DNA from: Turritopsis dohrnii
Taxonomy: Eukaryota; Cnidaria; Hydrozoa; Anthoathecata; Oceaniidae
DNA length: 64,000 nt
Assembly (NCBI GenBank): GCA_027922465.2
Contig: BQMF02000044.1
Span: 1,178,001 to 1,242,000, forward strand
Reading direction: 5' to 3'
Part shown: positions 37,341-58,300 of the stretch, one piece after another
Position numbering within the stretch: the first letter of the stretch is position 1
How the letters are laid out: each line of letters starts with the position of its first letter
The notes under the pieces: model-generated
The model's input: only the letters and a program-made list of their open reading frames with translations
Database searches by the model: none
Told to the model about the DNA's origin: nothing
Program-made: the position numbers and the translations under genes

Positions 37341-40300
37341 TCATTTCACACCCAACATGATTCGAAGTTTATCAAATTTCGCTTTGGGTAAGCTTTTCGT
37401 TAAGATATCAGCAACCATTTCATCTGTGGGGCAATATTCGACTTTAATCACTTTCTCTCCAACAGCTTGTCTAACGTAATGAAATTTAATGTCGATGTGC
37501 TTTGTTCTTGAATTCGATCTTGGATTTTTGCTAAGTCCAATAGCACCTTGATTGTCTTCATACAATGTCGTTGGCGTTGTTTGTTTGAACCCAATGTCGT
37601 TCAATAATTGTCGAAGCCAAGTTGCTTCTTGTGCAGCATGACTGAGAGAAATGTACTCAGCTTCTGTAGAGGACAGTGCAATAACAGATTGACGCTGTGA
37701 TCGCCATGTGATTGGAGACCCTCCAATCTGAAAGACGTACCCAGATGTCGACTTTCTGGATATCTTATCACCTGCCCAATCAGCGTCAGTGTAAGCAGAC
37801 AAATTGACTTTATTTGTTTTTGATGCGACAAACTCTAAACAATAGTTCAATGTCCCTTTTATGTAACGAAACACACGTTTGATTCCTTTCCAGTGTTCTT
37901 GGCTAGGGTTAGACATAAACTGGCTTAATACTCCAACTGCATAAGATAGATCAGGTCGTGTACCGATGGAAGCATAGATGAGTGATCCAATAGCAGCTTG
38001 GTAATCCTTGAGATTGACAGGGTGATCTTCTGTGGGCATTTTTTCGAAAAGCTTCCCAGTCTCCATTGGTGTTGATACTGGCTTACACTCATCCATTCCA
38101 AAACGCTTTAGCACATTTTGTAAATAAGCTGTTTGACTGATTCGAAGAATACCTTCTTTACGATCTCGCTTAATTGACATACCAAGGATGTAATTAATTT
38201 CACCTTGATCAACCATATCAAATTCATTCTCGAGATTCTTCTTTTCCTGGTCGAGAAGTTCAAGATCATCAGATGCTAAAATGACATCATCAACATAAAT
38301 AGCAATAATCATCAAAGAGATTCTGTTATTCTCTTTGACACATTTGTAATAAATACATGGATCAGCATCACTAGCGTTATACCCATTTTCTTTCAAATAG
38401 CGATCGATTTTTAAGTTCCACAAACGAGCAGCTTGTTTCAGACCATAGATACTTTTATGAAGCTTGCAAACTTTGCTCGGATCATCGACAAAACCTTTAG
38501 GTTGTTTCATGTAGATTTCTGCATCTAGATCTCCATTTAAAAATGCAGTTTTGACATCCATTTGATGAACATCAAGATTGAGCTCATTACCAATAGCTAA
38601 GACAGTCCTTATAGAATTATATTTGGCAACAGGAGCGAAAGTATCATCAAAATCAATGCCTTGCTTTTGGGAATATCCTTGAGCAACAAGACGAGCTTTG
38701 TGTCTGTTGATTTGACCATCTGCACCACGTTTCTCTTTGAAAACCCAGCGACTACCAACTACATTTTTTCCTTCAGGAAGATCGACTAGATCCCAGGTGC
38801 GATTTTTGATGAGTGAATCCATCTCATCTTGAACAGCTTTACGCCATTGATCAGCTTTGCTGCAACTCATTGCTTCTTCATAGCTGGAAGGCTCATTATT
38901 ACTAACAGCAATGCTAGCATTTTCAACGAAATCCCACCAATTTCCAGTAAGAACACCGAGACGATGAGTTGCTCTTCTCTTGCGTTGAATACGTTGATTG
39001 ATTACGTTAGGGACTTCTCGTGGAATAGCTTGGTCAGGAGCAGCTTGGTGATCAGGTACAGGTTGATCTTCAGGTGCATGGTCAGCAATCTCATCAACAT
39101 TTGAATCAAAGTAAAACTCACAAAGTTCCTCGATAATGTCTCGTTTGGTGAAGTCTCCCACTTTCGGAAATTCCTCTTCAAAAAACAGAACATCATTACT
39201 TCGAATCATTTTTCTTGATTCAGGATTAAATAACTTGTACCCTTTGCTATCACTAGGGTAACCAACGAAGATGCATGAAATAGAACGTTTATCTAATTTG
39301 TTCTTTTGGTTTTCAGAAGGCACGTGAACCATAGCTTTGCAACCGAAAACTCGTAAGTGGTGTACGGTAGGCTTCCTTTTAAACCAGCATTCGAATGGTG
39401 TTTGATCTTTCAATTTCGACGTTGGACTGCGATTTCGAACGTAAACCGCTGTTGCAACCGCTTCAGCCCAAAACTCCAAGCCTAGGTTAGTTTGATGAAG
39501 CATTGATCTCGCTAAATCGAGGATGGTACGATTCATTCTCTCGGAAACACCATTTTGCTGTGGCGAATAAGGAATCGTAAACTCTCGTTGGATCCCTTTA
39601 TCTTTACAAAACTGATTAAACTCATTTGAAGTGTATTCTCTACCATTGTCGGAGCGGAGTCTCTTAATTTTACGACCTGCAGCATTTTCCATCAAAGCAA
39701 CATACTCTTTGAATTTCGACAGTGTTTCACTTTTAGCCTTCATAGTGTATAGTACGGTATATCTGGAAAAGTCATCGATGAAGGTAACAAAATATTTCGA
39801 TCCTCCCACTGAATCAATACTCATAGGTCCACAGACGTCACTGTGGATCAACTCCAAAGGTTGCTCAGTTTCAGATTCTGACCTTTTTGGAAATGAATTT
39901 CGGTGTTGTTTTCCAACTGCACAGCCTTCACACTTTAGGTCACTCATCTCTTTAGGATCGATCTGCAAACCAGTAACTAATTCTTTGTCATTTAAGGATT
40001 TTAAACTTTCATAACCTAAATGACCATATCGTTGGTGCCATAAATGTAAGGATTGCGGTTTGGTTGCCTTTCCAATGCAACAAGTTTCATTAAAATCCAC
40101 AGTATTGAGTTTATACAATTTGCCATGTTTATGGCCAATAACGTAATCCTTCCCATCGATATTAATACCACATGATTGTCCCTGGAACTCAACAACAGCA
40201 CCCTTCTCCGTAACAGACGGCAGTGAGAAAAGTTTGTTTTGCAATTTCGGCACGTAAAGAACGTCCTTCAAAACAATATCGACTTTTTCATCTTTATTCA

Positions 40301-41270
40301 GCACGGTTAAATGCACTTCCCCTTTTCCATACGAATACAGACAACTATTATCTGCTAATTGAATGCACAATGGTTGATTGAACTTATGAAAGTTTTTAAT
40401 GCTTTTCCTCTCATAAGTCATATGTTGAGATGCTCCAGAATCTATCCACCATTCTTCTCCATTATTCGGATTAGAGGACACGAGAGCGATTTCTGGCGAC
40501 TGATCAGTCTGGTTAGACAAATTTGCTTTTTGTTTGGCATTTTCATCACGCTTTTTCTTGGTACAATCTCGGGCATAATGGTTTTTTCCTTTACAATAAT
40601 GACATATAAACTCTTTCGGTTTTTTCGGATCTTTCGGATTTTTAGTGAAAAGAGCATCCTTAACTCTGTCCTTTGACGCAGGAAATTTCATCTTTTCAGC
40701 TTCATGAATTAAACGGTCACGGACATACTCCCATGTCAAATTATCTTCAGCAATGGTTTCCAATGCAGTTATTAGAAAATTAAATTCTTCAGTAAGACTA
40801 CTTATCAAAATGATGACTAAATCGTGTTCAGCTATAGGATCGCCTATTGCTTCTAAATGTTCCGCAATCGTCTTGACAGAATTGATATGTTCAACCATAT
40901 CACCACCTTTCTGTAACTTTGCTGAATACAACTTTCTTCGCAGCTGTATTTTTCTCGAAAGTGTCTTCTGCTGGAAATGTTTTGCTAAGCTATCCCAAGC
41001 TTCCTTTCCAGTTTCAGCAGAACGTACATAGATTTGGAGATTAGTCGAGATTGATAAACAAACACTAGCAAGAGCAAGATTCTCTCTCTTTTTAAATTTA
41101 CGTTTCTCTTCTTCATCACCAGCTTCGTTTAAAACTTCGGAACCATTCACAATCTCCCAGAGATCTCTTCCGATTAAAAACATTTTCATATTAAACTTCC
41201 ACGTATGGTAGTTCTCAGCTGTAAGTTTCTCAAATTTAAAGTCAAATTCCTTATCAGCAGCCATAGCCAT
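37341..41270 (-). CDS. Copia gag-pol polyprotein, 1309 residues
   Basis: Single frame with all domains in Copia order. The gag part (1-220) is followed by a zinc knuckle CHYCKGKNHYARDC (223-236) and an aspartic protease with IDSGASQHM (about 276-284). The integrase has H409, H416 (or H412), C447, C450 and the catalytic triad D478 (HSDVCGP), D541 (SDNGREY), E577 (SERMNR); D541 and E577 are separated by 35 residues. Reverse transcriptase (about 810-1070) has YVDD at 992-995, and RNase H (about 1160-1300) has TDADWAGD, SSTEAEY and YEDNQGAI. Integrase before reverse transcriptase is diagnostic for Ty1/copia. All catalytic residues are kept and no stop or shift interrupts the frame. There is no visible gag/pol shift or leaky stop, so relative gag dosage would need another mechanism such as splicing. 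The start MAMAADKEF lies 84 bases after the 5' LTR. Confidence 0.95.
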   Translation of the reverse strand: MAMAADKEFDFKFEKLTAENYHTWKFNMKMFLIGRDLWEIVNGSEVLNEAGDEEEKRKFKKRENLALASVCLSISTNLQIYVRSAETGKEAWDSLAKHFQQKTLSRKIQLRRKLYSAKLQKGGDMVEHINSVKTIAEHLEAIGDPIAEHDLVIILISSLTEEFNFLITALETIAEDNLTWEYVRDRLIHEAEKMKFPASKDRVKDALFTKNPKDPKKPKEFICHYCKGKNHYARDCTKKKRDENAKQKANLSNQTDQSPEIALVSSNPNNGEEWWIDSGASQHMTYERKSIKNFHKFNQPLCIQLADNSCLYSYGKGEVHLTVLNKDEKVDIVLKDVLYVPKLQNKLFSLPSVTEKGAVVEFQGQSCGINIDGKDYVIGHKHGKLYKLNTVDFNETCCIGKATKPQSLHLWHQRYGHLGYESLKSLNDKELVTGLQIDPKEMSDLKCEGCAVGKQHRNSFPKRSESETEQPLELIHSDVCGPMSIDSVGGSKYFVTFIDDFSRYTVLYTMKAKSETLSKFKEYVALMENAAGRKIKRLRSDNGREYTSNEFNQFCKDKGIQREFTIPYSPQQNGVSERMNRTILDLARSMLHQTNLGLEFWAEAVATAVYVRNRSPTSKLKDQTPFECWFKRKPTVHHLRVFGCKAMVHVPSENQKNKLDKRSISCIFVGYPSDSKGYKLFNPESRKMIRSNDVLFFEEEFPKVGDFTKRDIIEELCEFYFDSNVDEIADHAPEDQPVPDHQAAPDQAIPREVPNVINQRIQRKRRATHRLGVLTGNWWDFVENASIAVSNNEPSSYEEAMSCSKADQWRKAVQDEMDSLIKNRTWDLVDLPEGKNVVGSRWVFKEKRGADGQINRHKARLVAQGYSQKQGIDFDDTFAPVAKYNSIRTVLAIGNELNLDVHQMDVKTAFLNGDLDAEIYMKQPKGFVDDPSKVCKLHKSIYGLKQAARLWNLKIDRYLKENGYNASDADPCIYYKCVKENNRISLMIIAIYVDDVILASDDLELLDQEKKNLENEFDMVDQGEINYILGMSIKRDRKEGILRISQTAYLQNVLKRFGMDECKPVSTPMETGKLFEKMPTEDHPVNLKDYQAAIGSLIYASIGTRPDLSYAVGVLSQFMSNPSQEHWKGIKRVFRYIKGTLNYCLEFVASKTNKVNLSAYTDADWAGDKISRKSTSGYVFQIGGSPITWRSQRQSVIALSSTEAEYISLSHAAQEATWLRQLLNDIGFKQTTPTTLYEDNQGAIGLSKNPRSNSRTKHIDIKFHYVRQAVGEKVIKVEYCPTDEMVADILTKSLPKAKFDKLRIMLGVK

Positions 41271-41340
41271 AATCAGCGAAAGTAATACTATACTGGATCA
41301 AGATATAACATAAACTTCGTGTTTTAAAACATGCGGTTGT

Positions 41341-42045: not shown

Positions 42046-42309
42046 ACTCTTAATTAGTTATTTTGTAATATAATTTTTAGTTCAAATTGAAAGTGTCGAC
42101 AAAAATTGTGTTCGATTTTCTACTTGTATTGCAAATTTTGGTCGGGGAAAAGTGACTTATTTCGAAATTTTAGTCGGGGAAAAGCGACTAATTTCGAAAT
42201 TTTAGTCGGGGAAAAGTGACTAAAATTTCTCGAGGTGACTAAATTTTTCCCCGACCAAAATTTTCCCCGACTAAAATAAATCCCGACTTTTTTTTCCCCG
42301 ATAAGGTAG

Positions 42310-43137
42310 TATACCTGTTAGGTGTTTGGTCTTCATTATGATCATGTTGAAGGTGTGATCTTTTGCAAAACTTTCAAAACGCTTTTTCTCCGTGTTTGTT
42401 TTTTAGCAAAGTTCCTACTACATTTTGGGTCTCTTTTACAAAACTAAAAAAGCTCTGTGGGAGAGACCGCCACCACGTTCAAGCACATAGATTTTTCTAA
42501 AATCGTTTTTTTTTTTTTGTTTTTCCGAAATACTAGTCATTCCCAAGATATAACAATATAAAGTAAAAGTTTGGATGGAAAAAAATTCACTTTTCAGGAA
42601 AAATTAAATAACAGGGAAATGAGGGTTTTAGAAAGAATAATAAAAAAACCGTTTTTACTCACATCTTTTGTGATTCTATCAAGAGTGGAATGAGCACTGG
42701 AAACTGAGTAGTTTTGTAAATGGAGCGGCTTTTGTGAAGACGGGGTGTTAATTTTCCAAGCCTTTTTTCTCTTTACTAATACAAAATTTTCTAGTAACCT
42801 TAACATTATTTGATAGCTTATAAAAAATGCTTTCCAGTGATATATAATATATAGCAAACATTTATTTATTGTTGGAAAAAAAATCGAGTTTGTTATAATT
42901 ACACTCATGACGTATACCGTATCCTTAATCGACTCTTGTATCACAGGCTTTTCGCAACCTTCCACAATCGGCACAATTTTTAAAAAATCTCTGTGAACGA
43001 GTATAAAAAGTAGTGAAATTACGCACACAACACAAACAGAATCAGACTACAACCGCTGACCAACATAATGTTAATAATACTAATACATATGGACGACTGT
43101 AGAGTATCATATAAAATTTCATAGTCATTTTTCGTAA
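42310..43137. other. Right interior of TTAA element and spacer before TIR element
   Basis: No gene is supported. The minus-strand frame 42594-43028 runs across the boundaries of two nested elements (42924, 42949), so it cannot be an original gene. Confidence 0.6.
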
Positions 43138-43510
43138 AGGGATCCCAACATGAAATTCAAAATTTTCAAAATGAACACAAAATCGAAAAATAAATAACAA
43201 ACATTACCATCATAATAACAGTTCGCATTTGATTATGTTCAATACTACAAATTATTTTTATAAAAAACATTCAAAACGTGCGCTATAATCGCCATATTGT
43301 TTTAATAATATAAAGAGTAGGTTCCAGTCTTTTGTCCAGCGGTTTCTATTTATGACGTCAGGTATACCATATGAACTCGCTGATTATGTATTGAATGTAA
43401 TGTTCTTTTTCAAATAAAAAACCTGTGTGATTTCTTATCAAAGTTATCTATGTTATAGAAGTTTCTTTTTCTAAATTTTGAGTTTTTGAAAATAATTTCA
43501 CAAAAATAAA

Positions 43511-44251
43511 ATGTCAATATCTCCATATCAGTTTGAGCCGAAATGTCGAAATGATTCAGTTTCCAGTTGGGAAACATACGACGAAGAAACAGTAAGTGAT
43601 TCTGAACAGACAACAGCAAGACGTTTCTCTTTGGTGTAAATGCTTAAAATGTAAAGCAATGTTGATCAACAAGGAATGTTTATGCTGTACAGAAGTGGAT
43701 GAAATCAAGTACAACAAGTTAGATGAAGGCGAGTACGCTAATACAGTTCATGACAAATCGTACCCACCTCAGTATTTTTAAAATTATATTTAACTCCTTA
43801 TTGTAACCTTTTTAGAAATAAAATGGATAACTGATCACGAGGGATTTGCTCCAACCTGCTTAAACAAATGGGTTTTATGGGCAGCTCTCGTTTCTATGAA
43901 AGACAGGGAAGAATGCCACTTGCCACCTCAAACAGATGTACCTAATAGGTACACTGATTTCTTCCTTTTGTGTTTGTTTCCATAACAGAACAGTTTTGTT
44001 TATGAATTGCTAACATCTTTAGGACGTATCGATATGCTGCCTATAGACAATTTTCATGGTTTATCTACACGAAGCTTGGAAGATATGTACGAAGAGTAAT
44101 CCCTGCTTGTGCAGTCTCCAAGATAAGGGAAACATTCCCAGAACCAGATGGACAGTATGTCAACTTTGAAGGTGATGACGAAGGGGCGGATGCGTTATCA
44201 GAAGTAAAGTCGGCATGGGAATGGATGTGTCATGAACAAGCTGAGGGATAG
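43511..44251 (+). pseudogene. P2X7-type cytosolic zinc-binding domain protein in a transposon
   Basis: Begins MSISPYQFEPKC, continues to SDSEQ, then after a one-base register change reads DVSLWCKCLKCKAM, NKECLCC. An intron with unclear donor ends at the acceptor TTTTTAG (43815). Exon 43816-43948 reads ITDHEGFAPTCLNKWVL. A GT-AG intron (43949-44022) is followed by exon 44023-44251 with YRYAAYRQFSWFIY, RRVIPACAVSKIRETFPEP, GQYVNFEG and the end EQAEG. The W-C-C-C / ECxCC cysteines, HEGF, YRxAYRQF and (V/I)IPxCxVxxIRxxFP phrases are the signature of the intracellular 'ballast' domain of P2X7 receptors, which binds zinc and guanine nucleotide; in invertebrates it often occurs without a channel. 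No membrane segment is seen. The frameshift before WCKC (about 43560-43600) makes this copy probably inactive unless the reading is an assembly error. It ends 61 bases from the convergent transposase gene. Confidence 0.7.
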
Positions 44252-44312
44252 ACTAAAGCACAATTGCCTTTTATGCTAAAAAGAATTAAATAAGTTAAAT
44301 CACAACAATTGT

Positions 44313-47167
44313 TCAGAACCTAGTGTACTTCGCTTTATGTTCAATTATTTCCCTTTTCGTTTCATTCGAGACAGGGGCCATTATTCTCTTCTTTGCAGCT
44401 GGTTTCGTTTTTCCTGACTCTGCTCGTCTGTAAACTAATCGAAAACCTTTTTGTAAATAGTTGTAATTTTTCGGTTCGTATACAGTTCGAACAACTCGTT
44501 TCTTCGTGGCCTTTCTCCATGCAATCTTAAATCGCTGTTCACCAATCCGCTCTTTGTCATTGTTAATAACAGCTTGCTTTCTGTTCACATTGCTGTTGTT
44601 GTCCAAAGCTGCAAGGTATGCCCCGATTTGCATGTGTTCAAACTGAAAATGATATTGTTTTGGCAAATATTTTAGCAAAAGGCTGTTGAAAATTTCTACG
44701 CTGGTCGTGTTGACAACATTGGTTAGATACTTCACGTCGTTTTTTAGGCGTTTGTTAAGGACGATTGACTTAAGTACTTTGTGTGCTTCGGAATCTTCTT
44801 TTAGCCATTGAGTCTCTCGAGCCTCTTCTGCGGAAATCTTATCGTGGGCACACCTCTTGAATGTCACTGCACCTGGCCATTTGTGTTTGTTCACGACGTG
44901 GTATATTATAGATTTTATCTTTTCATAAATTAAGTCCGCATTGTTGTTCGATGTTGTTACGCTCCACCACACATGGTTGATGATAGATGGGATCCATTCC
45001 ACAAGTTCACGAGTACTGTTGTTCTTTTTGGCTCCTTTGTGAAGTTTTTTGGACATCCCCTTGATAACGTGCCATGGGTCGAACTGATGTGAAATTCCTT
45101 TGAAGAATAGTTTAAAAAATAATATAATAGTTTGATACACAACAAGAACAAGAACAAGAATTTGATGTCATGGCGTTGTTTCGACTGGGATCATAATTAC
45201 CTTTAAATCGAGGATCAGTTCGCATAAGCTTTTGTATTTGCACATGTCTGTCTGTTGAAATAGTATTAATTGTGACAGCTTCATCCTTCAAATTCATAAC
45301 TGCTTTAACAAAGCCAGCCTTCTCCATGGCGTTCGAGTTAGCAACTTCTGTCACCGGAATAACAACCGTATCAACAACCTCTCCTGTACTGGCATCCATC
45401 AGAGTGTACGTGCAGTACTTCGCACTGTGCCCCGGGCTGTCACAGCGTCCGTCACCGATCAACACAACAATATCCTTCATTTTCAACATACGCAACATCC
45501 TCTTCCTTTCCTTTCGCCACATTTTTCTGATCACTGGAGCTATGAAATCTCTTCTTATTCGACAAAATGTTGAATCAGTAAAAAACTTTATATTAATTAA
45601 TGAGGCAAAGCGCTCAAACTTTGCAAACGGTATACCGGAGAAAACAATACCAGACGATACAAATAGGTTACCAAGACCTTTTACAGATTCAACTTCCGGC
45701 TGAGAACGCCATTGAACATCGCAGTTGTTAAGACAGTTCAGTTTCAAATGCAGCTGGCTTCCTTCATTCTTTACATCTTCTATAAGTGTCTGGTCAAGAC
45801 CATTACCACATTTCGGGCAGAACTTCAGTAACTTGTAAATCTTGCTTTCGTAAACCATCAGCACTCTATCTTTCATCAGACTTGTTTTAAATGATTCTAC
45901 CTCTTCATACTCATCTGAACTCAGTTCATGTTCATTTGGTACATAATCTGCATCATTTGCCACATCACAAGTGCTAGTGACGCTATCATTTAAAATATCT
46001 ATCACACTCACTTCATTCGCTAACTCTGATTCCTTATTTACACAATAATTTAATTCAATATTTACAAAAGGACTATTTACAATAAATTTATGTTCGTTTC
46101 CTGTTCCACATTCTCGCCTATCTGTGTCAATCTCGTTTTCAATTTCTTGCTCGTCGTCTTCTACCTCCTCCTCTTCTTGTTGTTCTTCGCCTTCTTCTTC
46201 CACATAAAATTCCTGTTCCTGTTCTTCTTCTCCAGATTCATCGATTTCCTCAACCTCAGAAAGATCTTCATCTTCTTCTTTGTCACTCCATTCGCTATCA
46301 TCATGCAACTCATTTTGAGAACTGCTCACAATGGTATTTACATCAACCATGGAGTATCTATTGGAAGTAGAGAATCTAAAATTTGATACAATGATTAAAA
46401 AAATCGCTTGAGTTAAAAAGGTCTGGAATCGAGTACGGAACATGGTGTTGTTTGATCCTTTCTCCTAATGAAGTACACAAATTATATTTTACCTTTGTTT
46501 TGTCGGAGTAGGGAATTGGATCGATAAATTTGATGAATAATGATTTTTTCGACGTGTTTGTTGAGTTTTGTTTCTCATTATCCGTTGCCGAAGGGTAGCA
46601 GTTGAAGTTGTGGCCTCTTTAGTGTACGTGGGGTCAGTTTGTAGTGTCCGAATCAGTTTGTGTAGAAACTTCTGAAGTTGTTAAAATTCCGAAATCAATT
46701 TCAGGTATATCTTCCGATACATCCTCTGTCAACAATTCCTCAAGTAACTATCGAAAAAGAATTTCACTAGTACGTAAATAGATAAGTAAATAAATAAGTA
46801 AATATAAATTTTGTTACCAGGTTACCTGGTTATGATTTTTCTGCTCGTTTCGTTTTACTGAAAGCGATCTAATATTTGGTGTCTTCTTGTGACAAAAAAC
46901 TGTTGGTATAGCATCTTGTTTCAACAACTTCTTTATTCGTGACGACTGAGGCATTAATTTTGCTTTTAAGAGTGACGATTCTTCGAAACAGTCATCTGTA
47001 AAGTGGTCGGAACAAAGAAAGCATGCTTTAGGCAAGTTGTCTCTGCCAATAGCATGAATCCATGCTTCACGTATTCTTTTTCTTCCTTCGCCTGGGAGGC
47101 GATGGAACGATTTGTCCTTGTTTTTATCGGTATGATTGCTACAACCGTATGCTGCACACTGCGGCAT
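44313..47167 (-). pseudogene. THAP-domain DDE-type transposase (Kolobok-like)
   Basis: Exons on the minus strand: 47167 to about 46821, 46747-46493, 46375-45201, 45097-44313. The N-terminal THAP domain has C4, C9, W36, C52, H55 and the AIPTVF box (86-91), so it should bind transposon ends through zinc. Exon 2 (LLEELLTED, STQTDSD, then QTDPTYTKEAT) needs a one-base shift near 46635. Exon 3 starts with a long Glu/Asp run, then CPKCGNGL, a cysteine pair NCLNNC, and IGDGRCDSPGHSAKYCTYTLMD (first Asp) and STDRHVQIQKLM (second Asp). Exon 4 starts GISHQFDPWHVIKGMSKKL and runs to a basic C-terminus ending KYTRF. The GDGRCDSPG, TDRH, HQFDxWH order is one I associate with Kolobok-type transposases; the third acidic residue is not assigned. 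Phases across introns 2 and 3 match. One frameshift suggests a recently disabled copy. Confidence 0.75.
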
Positions 47168-47400
47168 ACTAACTAAACTCCTGTAATGCTTACGCTAAAT
47201 GTGAAATCTTCTCTCTTCACAAACTTGGAAACTGATTTTTTTTTTAAAAAAAAAAAACGTGGATGATACTAGTCTATTATTAATTTCTTTTCATAAATTT
47301 CTATAACTTCTGATTGTAGCTAATTATTTTTCAAAAATGTAAAAAGAGAAAACGTTTAAAGAAGCTTCGATATTTCTTTCGTAATCTTTTTTATGTTTGA

Positions 47401-48117
47401 AGGCCCTGTTAACTATTAACTGTTAACTGTAAACTATTCGCTAAACTATTCCTAAAATAGAAACAGAAAATTATTCTAATAATTTAGTTTATGTTCAAAT
47501 ACACTGATAAACTAATCAATAAACTAATACGATAAATTATAAATAAGTGTAAGGTTCATTCATTCATCATGGAACAAGCAGTTGAAGAAGTTTTAGTTTG
47601 TTCAATTATTGCTTCTTCATGTGTGGTATATAGCGAATCTTTTGAATTCCGGAAAACGAAACAGAAAATGTTGAGTGAAAGATTATTTTAGAGAACGTGA
47701 CCATGGAGCATTTGACTTTTCAAGAATTGAAATTAAACGATCTATATCTATGTTCACCTTTTTTTAAAGTTTCAATAAATTTACCCTTAGCGTTAACAGG
47801 CGCATTTTTCTTCATGTACAATTGTTACTTCATGTACTTATTGTTACGAATTTGTCCTAAACCGTTGCATTTACCTTTGTGCAACACGTGTTCGATTATT
47901 TAAATGTCGGTATTCTTTGAACTTTGCTAAACTATTCGGAATAAAATCAAAATGATTTGATTTTATTCGAAGCTAAATTAAACTATTTTTTTGCTTCTTT
48001 TAATAATTTTTGAATAGTTTACGATACAATACACAATAAATTATTTCGTAAATTATTCTATTTTAAGTAACTTTATGGAATAGTTTAGCGATTAATTTAT
48101 CGTCTAACAGGGCCTTG
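47401..48117. mobile_element. 717-bp TIR element, AGGCCCTGTTA ends
   Basis: AGGCCCTGTTA at the left and TAACAGGGCCT-type sequence at the right are inverted, and AAACTATTC/GAATAGTTT strings are repeated inside in both orientations. I could not define a target duplication with confidence. The frame at 47697-47903 is hydrophobic and unrecognised. It lies within the Kolobok-like element between transposase promoter region and right TIR. Confidence 0.65.
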
Positions 48118-48685
48118 AGAATTTTTCATTATGACTCAAAACAACGGTATACCTGACGTCACGACCACATTTTAATAAAAGGAGATCTGGGATCAACTAT
48201 TAATATTTGTGCCGAAGTGAAGCTCTCGAAGGAGAGCAGAATTAACATGATGATGAAGTTAAAAATACGAATTCTATTTTATCGTTAAATATTCGGTAAA
48301 TGAAAAGGCAAGCATTGGTTTTAGTGATTTGATACTATCAAAATATTTCATTTTCAATTTTCATGTTGGGATCCCTTTAATTAATTGTATTGAGGGGAAT
48401 CTAGATTTTATGTCACAGTTTTTATATACAGCGTTTACACTGGAGCGGATTGTTACGGAATCATGAGTCACGTTTCTAAGAATAGAAACTGTTACGGATT
48501 AGAAGTCCGTCATTGTTACGATAAAAATGAAAATAAATAAATAAATAAATAAAAAATAATAATGAAAAAAAAAATGAAAATAAAAACGAAAAAGTTTCCG
48601 CTACAGTTTTTCCCTCGTTTTCTTTTTCAACTGTTGAAGGATTGAATGAAATGTTTCAACGTCAGGTGCGCATGATTAGTGTGTT

Positions 48686-53189: not shown

Positions 53190-55306
53190 TTCCATGCTAA
53201 GACAATAAAGGAAAACATGAAAAGTTATTATAGAAGAAATTGTAAGACAATAAAGGAAAATGTGAAAAGCCATTATGAAAATAATTCAGAAAAAGTAACA
53301 CTATCAAAATAATTCAGGGACAATAAAAAGACTTACGAAAGAACACAGAATGAGTGTTAGTCACAAGAGTTTAGATCCTTATTCACGGGTCAAAATATTT
53401 AAAGACTCCATTGTTGAAGGGCCATATTATGTATGTGTGTCATGTAATCGGTGCCTTTACAAAAGATCTGTTAAAATCTATTGTGAAGAAAAGCATACAA
53501 AAAAGGGTTTTGATCCTAAATGTAGTCCGGCAATAACCTTTGATGATTCACTATATATATGTAAAACATGTGATAAGAAATTGTGCAGGAAAGAAATACC
53601 TTGCCAAAGTGTTAGCAATAAACTAGAATTGTTTGATTTGTCAATGCATTTTCAGGATTTGAATAAACTTGAACGCACCGTAATTTCCCAACGAATATTA
53701 TTTGCAAAGGTTCGAATTATGCCAAAGGGTCAATTTCCTAAAATTAAGGGAACTGTTTGTAATATCCCTATTGAAACAGACATTGTTTGTAATACTTTGC
53801 CCACTGAATATTAATGATAGTGGTGTCATTTTTATGAAAGGAAATTATGCTATAATTTTCATGTTATTGCAGAATCAGTTAGGCCTGAATTGGTGCTTTC
53901 CCTTTTACAATGTTTAAAGGCTGCTAATCATCTATACAAAGATGTTGACATACAGGATGTCATTACAGCCAGAGATGATGTTTTTGAAGTAAAATATATC
54001 AATGATGAAGATGATGATGTAAATTTTAATATTATACAAAATAAGTCTGAGGATTATCCCACCATCAATTTTGTTGATGATAAAGATGTTCTATTGATTA
54101 AGTGCAAATGTGAAGTTCATGATTTTGAAGATAATGACCCCTTGGATGAACACCGACTAAACTGTGTAGAAACTACATTGATATCTAAATGCCCACATGT
54201 TGTAGCTGATGATGAAAACATCATAATTGCGCCAGGCCAAGGAAAGGCACCTGTAAATATTTTGAAAGATGAATTTGTTGAAGAACTTGCTTTCCCAGAT
54301 TTATTTCCATCAGGGAAATTTGGTTACACTGCTACTCGAGAAATTAAATTATCTCATACAAAGTATTTTAATCAACGGTTATTGAATTATACTCAAAGAT
54401 TTGCGTCAGATGCAGATTATATATTTTTTGCAAATTTTGTGTCTCAGCAAATTAATCTGCGAAACCAAATGAATGTTGCAATGAGGAAAGTATCAGATCA
54501 CAATGTTACTGCAGGAATGTTTAGTCAAAGTTTTAAAGATACTGTTAAGTCTTTTGTTGTAAATGATGAAGCATATAGCTTTATGAACTCAGTTAAAGGC
54601 TCTCCAGCATATTGGAAAAATATGCTTTCAGATGTTTTAGCCATGGTTAAACAACTAGGATTGCCATCATTTTTCTTAACTTTATCATGTGCTGACTTGC
54701 GGTGGGATGAATTAGTTGTAATCATTTCAAAATTAAATGGTTCTGAAATATCTGCCAGTGAAATCACAGAGATGTCATACTTTGAAAGATGTGAATTGCT
54801 AAATAACAATCCTGTGTTGCTAGCTAGACATTTCCAATTCCGTGTTGAAATTTTTTTTAAAGAGATTGTTATCAAAGGACCAATTGGAAGAGTTTTATAT
54901 TATGCCATCAGGGTTGAATTTCAAACCAGGGGCTCTCCTCATGTACATTGTTTGCTGTGGTGCGAAAATATGCAATGTTTATGTGTTGATACTATAGACG
55001 AATATACTGAATTTGTTGATTCAGTTATTTCAGCAAACATACCGAGTGAACCATCAAAACTAAAAGATCTTGTACAAAGATATCAAGTACACCACCACTC
55101 AAAAACCTGTAAGAAATATAATTATAAGGAATGCCGATTTGGATATGCCCATTTTTTTACACGAAGAACAATAATTGCTAAGCCACTTCCAGAAGATCTG
55201 TCACCTGCTGAAAAAAGTAAAATTCTTTTGAAGCAAAAAGTTATTTTGCAAAAAGTAAAGCAGCATATTGACACTGAATTAAACCCAAAAAAAAGAACAA
55301 GATGCC
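53190..55306 (+). pseudogene. Helitron Rep/helicase gene, 5' part (decayed)
   Basis: It begins with ~18-residue repeats, KTIKENMKSYYRRN and KTIKENVKSHYENN (53190-53290), a pattern typical upstream of Helitron polyproteins, then a stop. From 53350 a frame with CVSCNRCLYKRS, CxxC pairs, ICKTCDKKLCR and LSxxEExxISxRxxFxK-like text is the cysteine-rich domain found N-terminal to Helitron Rep. Two frame changes occur at 53800-53890. From 53890 the frame reads the Helitron-like N domain, FPDLFPSGKFGY, YFNQRLLNYTQRFA, GSPAYWKNMLSDVLAMVKQL, FFLTLSCADLRWDEL and the Rep nuclease motif RGSPHVHCLLW (HUH-type HxH). It continues to KTCKKYN, CRFGY and stops being Helitron at about 55300, where a tandem-repeat array interrupts it. 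The gene resumes at 62698. Confidence 0.85.
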
Positions 55307-58300
55307 CTACCGGGCAGAAGTATTCCTGCGGATGACTGTAAGACTTTCTGGAGCCTTTTCAGAAAGAAATGAGTGTTAGTTCACGCTTTAAAACCATATG
55401 CATAATGCGGAATGATGTTTGCAGTATTTTACATTTTACCTTTTAGCTACGATAACTATTAAACCTTGTTGTTTCATATAAAACTTCAGTCTTGCATCAA
55501 TTTAGAGATTTTCTCAAAAAGATTTCCATTCGAAGTTGCACTCCCTAAAGCATTTTCAAGAAGCAATTAACTAGTTAAAAGATTATCGCGTTAAGAATAA
55601 TCTGTGCTTTAAAAGGTGAATGTTTGTTCACGGTTTAAAACAATATGCATAATGTGGTATGATGTTCTTAGTGTATTACAGTTTATCTTGTAGCTGTGAA
55701 AGAAGTAATATTTGTTATTTCATATAAACTGCACTGTTTTGCATCATTTAGAGATTTTTTCAAAAAGTTTTTTATTCATAGTTATATTCCCTAAAGCATC
55801 TTCAAAAAGTAATGAAGTAATGAAAACTTTGTCACATTAAGTTTTGAAGGGAAAATCTGTGGCGTAAAGAGTAATAACTTCGAATTCATTTAATTACATT
55901 CCCGAGAGCATCATAAAAGTTAAGAGACTTTGAAAAATTTTGCCGGAGATCAAGCTTAAAAAGGAACACCGTCAGTTTAAAAATCCATTACAGAACACTC
56001 TTCCGTGGACGTTTCAAAATACTCCTTTTAAAACTATACAGTATGAAAATCTTTATGTTGTTTGTACCTGAACTTCATAATAAAAACTTTTACTTGGCCT
56101 TGCGAAATAATAAAAATATCTGTGTTTCCTTTTTATCGTCAGCTTGATAGTATACATATTTTAGAATCATACAATATTTTAAATTCGACTAGTCAATTAA
56201 AAAAGTGGTCATCTATTGATTAATAAAATGGGTATAAGCTGATGAGGAAGATGAGCTGTGCTTCAAGATTCCAGAGCTTTATAAAAACAGGATAGCTTAC
56301 CTAGGAACATGAAATAGAGAATTGTATCATATTTAGAAAAAGACTAATAGAAACCTTACGCATTTTTTAAATCGATGTAAGCATACCGTTTTTGTAGTCG
56401 TTCATATCTGATTTGAAGCATCAAAAACGGCTTATTTATCACGAATAACTACTAAGAGTATTAGTTTCACGTAGATTCTCAGTTTGGATCATAAATGTTC
56501 TTGATTCTTTTAAGTTTGACAGCCGTATAACCTCTTCTATATCCATATATTCAACCAAGAAATTTTCTCAGATCTACGCGTGCTTCTTCGCTTCCATTCT
56601 TAAAACAACTACGGAAAACGTAAGAACGTTGCATCAGACTCACGTAAAACAACATTTCTACCTTGGCATCTGCGATTTAGCCATATATCAACTATTCCTT
56701 TCAGTAGAGCTTATATTATACACCTTTAGAGTCTTTTCAAGCAAAGTACTTGCACACAATAAATGTAGTGTGAGTTAAGATATTTAAAGCATAAAAAAAA
56801 TGTAAGTTTGGAACTTAGAAGATCTGACTGACTATTTCCCATCGACAAAAATCGGTCTAGGTTTGGACAGTGAAAAAAAAACAAAACAAGATGCCCTACC
56901 GGGCAGAAGTATTCCTGCGGATGACTGTAAGACTTTCTGGAGCCTTTTCAGAAAGAAATGAGTGTTAGTTCACGCTTTAAAACCATATGCATAATGCGGA
57001 ATGATGTTTGCAGTATTTTACATTTTACCTTTTAACAACGATAATTATTAAACTTTGTTGTTTCATATAAAGCTTCAGTCTTGCATCAATTTAGAGATTT
57101 TTTCAAAAAGATTTCCATTCGAAGTTGCACTCCCTAAAGCATCTTCAAGAAGCAATTAACTAATTAAAAGATTATCGCGTTAAGAATAATCTGTGCTTTA
57201 AAAGGTGAATGTTTGTTCACGGTTTAAAACAATGTGCATAATGTGGTATGATGTTCTTTGTGTTTTACAGTTTATCTTGTAGCTGTGAAAGAAGTAATAT
57301 TTGTTATTTCATATAAACTGCACTGTTTTGCATCATTTAGAGATTTTTTCAAAAAGTTTTTTATTCATAGTTATATTCCCTAAAGCATCTTCAAAAAGTA
57401 ATTAAGTAATGAAAACTTTGTCACATTAAGTTTTGAAGGGAAAATCTGTGGCGTAAAGAGTAATAACTTCGAATTCATTTAATTACATTCCCGAGAGCAT
57501 CAAAAAACTTAAGAGACTTTGAAAATATTTGCCGGAGATCAAGCTTAAAAAGGATTACCGTCAGTTTAAAAATCCATTAGAGAACACTCTTCCGTGGACG
57601 TTTCAAAATACTCCTTTTAAAACTATACAGTATGAAAATCTTTATGTTGTTTGTACCTGAACTTCATAATAAAAACTTTTACTTGGCCTTGCGAAATAAT
57701 AAAAATATCTGTGTTTCCTTTTTATCGTCAGCTTGATAGTATACAAATTTTAGAATCATACAATATTTTAAATTCGACTAGTCAATTAAAAAAGTGGTCA
57801 TCTATTGATTAATAAAATGGGTATACGCTGATGAGGAAGATGAGCTGTGCTTCAAGATTCCAGAGCTTTATAAAAAACAGGATAGCTTACCTAAGAACAT
57901 GAAATAGAGAATTGTATTATATTTAGAAAAAGACTAATAGAAACCTTACGCATTTTTTAAATCGATGTAAGCATACCGTTTTTGTAGTCGTTCATATCTG
58001 ATTTGAAGCATCAAAAACTGCTTATTTATCAAGAATGACTACTAAGAATATTAGTTTCACGTAGATTATCAGTTTGGATCATAAATGTTCTTGATTCTTT
58101 TAAGTTTTACAGCCGTACTACAACCTCTTCTATATCCATATACTCAACAAAGAAACTTTCACAGATCTACGCATGCGTCTTCGCTTCCATTTTTAAAACA
58201 ACTACGGAAAACGTAAGAACGTTGCATAAGACTCACATGAAACAACATTTTTACCTTGGCATCTGCGATTTAGCCATATGTTAATTATTCCTTTCACTAG

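Follow-up and report, generated by a model that had tools for sequence, protein, structure and literature searches.

The element and its two genes

The window, by which we mean the whole stretch of 64,000 bp of Turritopsis dohrnii DNA analyzed here, contains between positions 43138 and 48376 a DNA transposon of 5,239 bp bounded by terminal inverted repeats (TIRs) starting AGGGATCCCAACATG. Inside it lie two genes, one coding for KolX, a protein with a P2X7-type domain, and one coding for a transposase in four exons. The features are listed here in the order of their positions.

43134..43137: left target-site duplication (TSD), GTAA (one base off)
43138..43165, plus strand: left TIR, AGGGATCCCAACATG..., agreeing with the right arm at 23 of 28 positions when numbered from the outer A
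43511..43728, plus strand: KolX exon 1 (MSISPYQFEP...WCKCLKC...CLCC), frameshifted between about 43592 and 43629 as judged from the sister family S
43729-43730, plus strand: KolX GC donor (GT in family S and in the C42 copy)
43816..43948, plus strand: KolX exon 2 (IKWITDHEGF...DVPN), with a Trp codon at 43824
44023..44251, plus strand: KolX exon 3 (TYRYAAYRQF...HEQAEG), with the PF20478 match; stop codon at 44249-44251
44313..45097, minus strand: transposase exon 4, with DPWH (C/DxxH motif), the catalytic E region and the C terminus
45201..46375, minus strand: transposase exon 3, with an acidic region and the DDE core, GDGRCDSPGHS and TDRH
46493..46747, minus strand: transposase exon 2 (STQTD... 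/ LQTDPTYTKE...), with one frame change, by comparison with the relatives P0035 and P0039
46826..47167, minus strand: transposase exon 1, THAP DNA-binding domain (PF05485, E 4.6e-17)
47401..48115: nested 715-bp insertion, AGGCCCTGTTA...TAACAGGGCCT, with a 3-bp TSD (TGA); empty site in the C598 copy (L010)
48349..48376, minus strand: right TIR
48377..48380: right TSD, TTAA

The preliminary description of this locus had seen two convergent genes 61 bp apart, and the positions and strands of the two stop codons bear this out. It had also placed them within TIRs with a TTAA target. The TIR pair stands (arms at 43135-43162 and 48352-48379, 28 nt, 89% complementary, the top of the 70 inverted pairs in the stretch), and so does the TTAA on the right, but the left flank reads GTAA, one base different in this copy, and the right end given there, 48375, was one base short. 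The 4-bp TSD of TTAA type and the termini AG...CT, that is, 5'-RR and YY-3', are those of the Kolobok superfamily. The 715 bp at 47401-48115 were inserted later and are foreign to the original element, because the C598 copy has the empty site; without it the element measures about 4.5 kb.

Spliced by hand into a model of 183 aa, the KolX gene matches the P2X7-type domain of Pfam (PF20478, E 1.3e-11). Its earlier description as a spliced gene of P2X7 type was right in kind, and the first of the proposed junctions turned out to be a lesion. Family S (contig C134) reads from MSISPYQFEP through WCKC in one frame, and therefore the break between 43592 and 43629 is a frameshift and a 29-base first intron at this place is ruled out. 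Family S also keeps a cysteine (in the motif CIT) that is conserved in the relatives and that is replaced in the window by tryptophan (TGG at 43824).

Exons 1, 3 and 4 of the transposase are open, exons 3 and 4 forming one open frame, and there is a single frame change in exon 2 (46747-46493, minus strand). Its classification as a THAP/DDE transposase held up. The THAP exon matches PF05485 at 4.6e-17, a THAP domain being a usual feature of Kolobok, and GDGRCDSPGHS, TDRH, DPWH and VEIFN follow each other in this order; with these motifs, placed by eye against relatives, the protein is a DDD/E transposase with the C/DxxH motif of the Kolobok superfamily. The roles of GDGRCDSPGHS, TDRH, DPWH and the following E are presumed here, in part after PMC9587614. 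The model of the window transposase matches no Pfam DDE family at E 0.1, and two relatives, P0035 and P0129, match the Mutator-like transposase family PF20700 (E 1.3e-8 and 2.2e-7). The closest relative of the transposase comes from Hydractinia (55%).

With frameshifts in both genes, a GC donor and a tryptophan in place of a cysteine, the window element is a decayed copy, and for the window itself the finding amounts to one further decayed copy. A Pfam scan of four proteins gave no nuclease family, and in the window neither the Rfam nor the tRNA scan found anything. Elsewhere in the window there is an open frame of 1,318 aa (37341-41297, minus strand) that by eye is like a Ty1/copia gag-pol polyprotein, and two long frames (53299-55335, plus strand) that, also by eye, resemble part of a Helitron-type replicase.

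Related copies and the linkage of KolX to the transposase

In the 436-Mb genome there are five exact matches to the TIR string, two of them in the window and one in each of the contigs C42, C312 and C598. The C42 copy (C42:706530), about 0.8 kb long, is internally deleted and has the left end and a slightly altered right end; between these TIRs, the same as those of the window element, there are remnants of KolX exons 1 and 2. The occurrence in C312 is a left end of 179 bp and the one in C598 a right part with remnants of the THAP exon. Besides, in seven other families KolX was found some hundreds of bases inward from an end of TTAAAGG type; in six of them only that end was seen. Both the C42 insertion and these seven families support that the P2X7-type gene belongs to the transposon and not to the target site, as had been supposed from the window alone. 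The alternative, a P2X7-type host gene beside or around which the transposon landed, could invoke the imperfect left TSD (GTAA versus TTAA) and the lack of a second full-length copy with the exact TIR string among those found; it is ruled out by the C42 copy, and the KolX genes inside the ends of other families and the convergent orientation described below leave it with practically no probability.

The preliminary description had named full-length copies with the same TIRs and no P2X7-type gene as evidence against its proposal. None was found at the four genome sites with these TIRs, the window included. Taken more loosely, with related TIRs allowed, the condition partly applies: there is a multicopy family without detectable KolX, called J here, which limits the idea of KolX as an obligatory factor and not that of KolX as a transposon-borne gene.

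Throughout the genome we found at least 150 matches to PF20478 (150 of 150 scored, out of 402 first-look candidates). A search with the DDE region of the window gave at least 114 matches from the 104 scored of 583 candidates, and these were merged to 99 loci. No fewer than 55 of the 99 transposase loci have a KolX match 3 kb away or less, when about 0.3 (0.27) pairs would be expected if the two were independent; counted from the KolX side, at least 54 of the 150 have a DDE match listed at the same distance. These are minimum values, and the lack of a listed KolX at the other 44 transposase loci should not be read as lack of the gene at each of them. A KolX match and a transposase match on contigs of equal length (6,468) were rejected as a sign of linkage, because chance alone can be expected to produce such agreements. 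The orientation was convergent in 54 of the 55 pairs and divergent in one.

We have also examined the best 30 KolX loci together with 1.5 kb fetched on each side. A DDE match was present in 24 of them (marginal in L016), four had a THAP-only match and two had neither. Locus L023 has no transposase within 1.5 kb and a convergent one 1.6 kb away (C110:654638-655447), and L030 has none near its KolX among the matches listed. Locus L029 was counted as "other" in orientation; a convergent transposase lies at C653:78992-79798, and the label probably also takes in another transposase fragment close by (C653:75495), which belongs to family J.

The two genes have diverged together. Comparing KolX and DDE distances over 10 families gave a Mantel r of 0.837 (p 0.0001; uncorrected distances, 9,999 permutations); a run with 13 rows had given 0.94, and three near-duplicate rows were dropped to arrive at the 10 families. 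As for the left ends, TTAAAGG was found in families A, B, D and F and in one of the two E copies, the other having TTAAAGA. Family C has TTAAAGG just before the shared stretch, and the left end of family S starts TTAAAGGGATCC. Departures from TTAA appear in a B copy (L019) and a D copy (L021), which have other letters at this place. Besides the window element, both ends were seen only for families D and J, with TTAA on both sides in two D copies (L015 and L020) and one J copy (L072).

A family without detectable KolX and a family without a DDE match

Family J accounts for 12 of the 30 transposase loci that were fetched (L042-L045, L053-L056, L061, L063-L065), and its copies are mostly 95-99% identical across long alignments. 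Its copy in contig C711 (L072) runs, between the two TTAA, from AGGGATTCCGAGGTGG to GGCACCTCGGAATCCCT over 3,834 bp; it has a THAP match, and its transposase frame is open for 749 aa. The transposase region of the family is 54-64% identical to that of the window element and the TIRs are related (AGGGATTCCGAGGTGG). The exact right end was found in nine J copies with six distinct flanks, three of the flanks being found twice; the doubled flanks may be haplotypes or segmental copies.

None of the 12 family J loci gave a KolX match at E 1e-3 with 50 queries, and in a laxer search downstream of the transposase stop of L072 the best E was only 0.026. With the same queries, KolX is detected at 2e-45 or better in those S and T loci that were searched. 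The transposase tree puts J into one clade with the window element, S and T (100/100), and there it joins T and two proteins from the databases (95/95). The simplest reading of family J is a single loss of KolX and then spread. KolX is present in 14 of the other 18 fetched transposase loci, two of which are the window element itself. The remaining four (L051, L052, L060 and L067) have no KolX within the fetched stretch; beyond it, KolX matches lie within 3 kb of the transposase for L060 and L052 and at 8 kb for L051, and L067 has none nearby among the matches listed.

Family D (L015, L017, L020 and L021) has a KolX frame, a THAP match and AGGGGAACACAAG ends, and no DDE match was found in its fetched loci. 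The L015 and L020 copies measure about 1.4 kb each. The KolX frame is open in L015 and L021, has one stop in L020 and lacks its 5' part in L017. The L021 copy has a TGAA duplication on both sides and sits in an open frame that by eye is like a retroelement integrase.

Because J has apparently spread without detectable KolX, the gene seems dispensable in cis. Taking family D into account as well, we lean slightly towards a wider interpretation of this, in which the Kolobok families of this one genome would form a pool with KolX either optional or shared in trans, and family J would have lost it once.

The KolX domain, its published relatives and its possible role

A search of the PDB with the single KolX model gave no match; the KolX profile, unlike the single model, does match P2X7, and the fold predicted for the KolX relative P0001 is the P2X7 ballast fold. 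Nanor b is among the KolX matches (P0224). Seven cysteines are invariant or nearly so across 38 KolX relatives. Two KolX pairs at dS of about 0.5 had dN/dS values of 0.10 and 0.24, and in family B the ratio was below 0.4 in 7 of 10 pairs. When close copies were compared within families A, C and D, many pairs gave values from 0.5 to over 1, as would be expected of copies decaying after insertion. Since within-family values are often this high and dS is mostly saturated in the comparisons between families, the case for selection on KolX rests on few pairs. By eye, the loop that follows the CC pair is shorter in the KolX of families E (L012, L013) and H (L022, L030), and in family H there is no cysteine at the CIT position of the others; E and H look like an outlier type of this domain.

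Next to its transposase, the Kol0 lineage of Kolobok codes for KolX, and some of the other lineages code for nothing but a transposase (Kojima and Bao, 2022, PMC9587614). Going by this published description, we assign the window element to the Kol0 kind (Kolobok-1_XT type), with which it shares the TTAA target, the 5'-RR...YY-3' ends, a DDE-type transposase with the C/DxxH signature and a second protein, KolX, of the ballast fold. It differs in that the window copy is degenerate, with its KolX gene broken, and in that its clade includes in this genome a family without detectable KolX. KolobokP, KolobokE, KolobokD and KolobokH also combine a Kolobok transposase with one accessory gene, which in KolobokP is on the opposite strand as it is here, but the accessory genes of these four code for nucleases or a helicase and not for a ballast-fold protein (PMC9587614).

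According to the same authors, KolX resembles residues 476-595 of P2X7 and adopts the ballast fold, Nanor is probably a domesticated KolX, and P2X7 originated when a P2X4-like gene and KolX were fused (PMC9587614). The P2X7 ballast domain and zebrafish Nanor (PMC7016195, PMC9587614) have in common with the KolX described here the domain family, the cysteine clusters and the predicted fold; they are host proteins, whereas KolX here is a stand-alone transposon gene. This zinc-binding domain is the one later joined to the P2X7 receptor in vertebrates. The preliminary description had proposed, as a possibility, a spread of the domain from transposons to P2X7, which agrees with the conclusion of Kojima and Bao and, that origin being already published, is not new. 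The ballast domain is found across Metazoa (Rump et al., 2020, PMC7016195), and "transpos" does not occur in the main text of that article, nor KolX or P2X7 in the available text of a 2018 paper on Xenopus Kolobok (PMC6004289). Among the publications listed by our searches, PMC9587614 was the only one on P2X7 together with Kolobok and, judging by titles, the only one that uses KolX for this protein. The sole part that we did not find in print is the family without detectable KolX, by searches aimed at other subjects and with subscription journals and Repbase Reports outside their scope.

We are highly confident that the window element is a decayed Kolobok of the Kol0 type, and that its KolX gene has long been inherited together with the transposase, can be lost, and most likely codes for an accessory or regulatory factor of transposition. 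The THAP-DDE protein would bind the TIRs and move the element by cut and paste into TTAA sites. As a small zinc-binding protein of predicted P2X7 ballast fold, KolX would assist or regulate this process and could be lost where a related element supplies it or where the transposase manages without. The activity of the transposase and the whole role of KolX are inferred; the direct results are the anatomy of the element with its TTAA ends, the linkage, orientation and joint divergence of the two genes, the fold predicted for a relative of KolX and the sister family in which KolX was not detected. What family J leaves for KolX is an optional role, a supply in trans or a regulatory role.

More specifically, KolX could act in trans on a whole pool of related elements, with the KolX-less J and the DDE-less D as users or partners. 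We consider this possible and rather doubtful: J and D, the latter with its KolX and THAP match, do coexist with KolX-carrying families of TTAAAGG ends, but the TIR sequences of both differ from those of the window element, there is no sign that the KolX of one family meets the transposase of another, and D may simply be an internal deletion. Clearly less probable still is that KolX is passive cargo without function for the transposon. The spread of family J, the dN/dS often near 1 within families A, C and D and the broken KolX of the window copy would all agree with cargo; against it, KolX is linked to the transposase and co-diverges with it in at least 10 divergent families, and the conserved cysteines and the two low dN/dS values at dS of about 0.5 also speak against it. 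An accessory or regulatory factor stays the reading that we prefer.

We know of no agreed function for the P2X7 ballast domain. A genome with at least 150 KolX matches, several families and one sister that has apparently lost the gene makes the role of KolX in the transposon testable by comparison or by an excision assay, and family J, if its loss is true, would offer a natural knock-out in which to study what the ballast fold does. As a minor observation on the same family, a CCCGACGAAATTTTCCCC-like repeat lies beside the window element (about 42133-42277), and one that by eye is of the same kind lies within a family J copy (L072:4059-4226).
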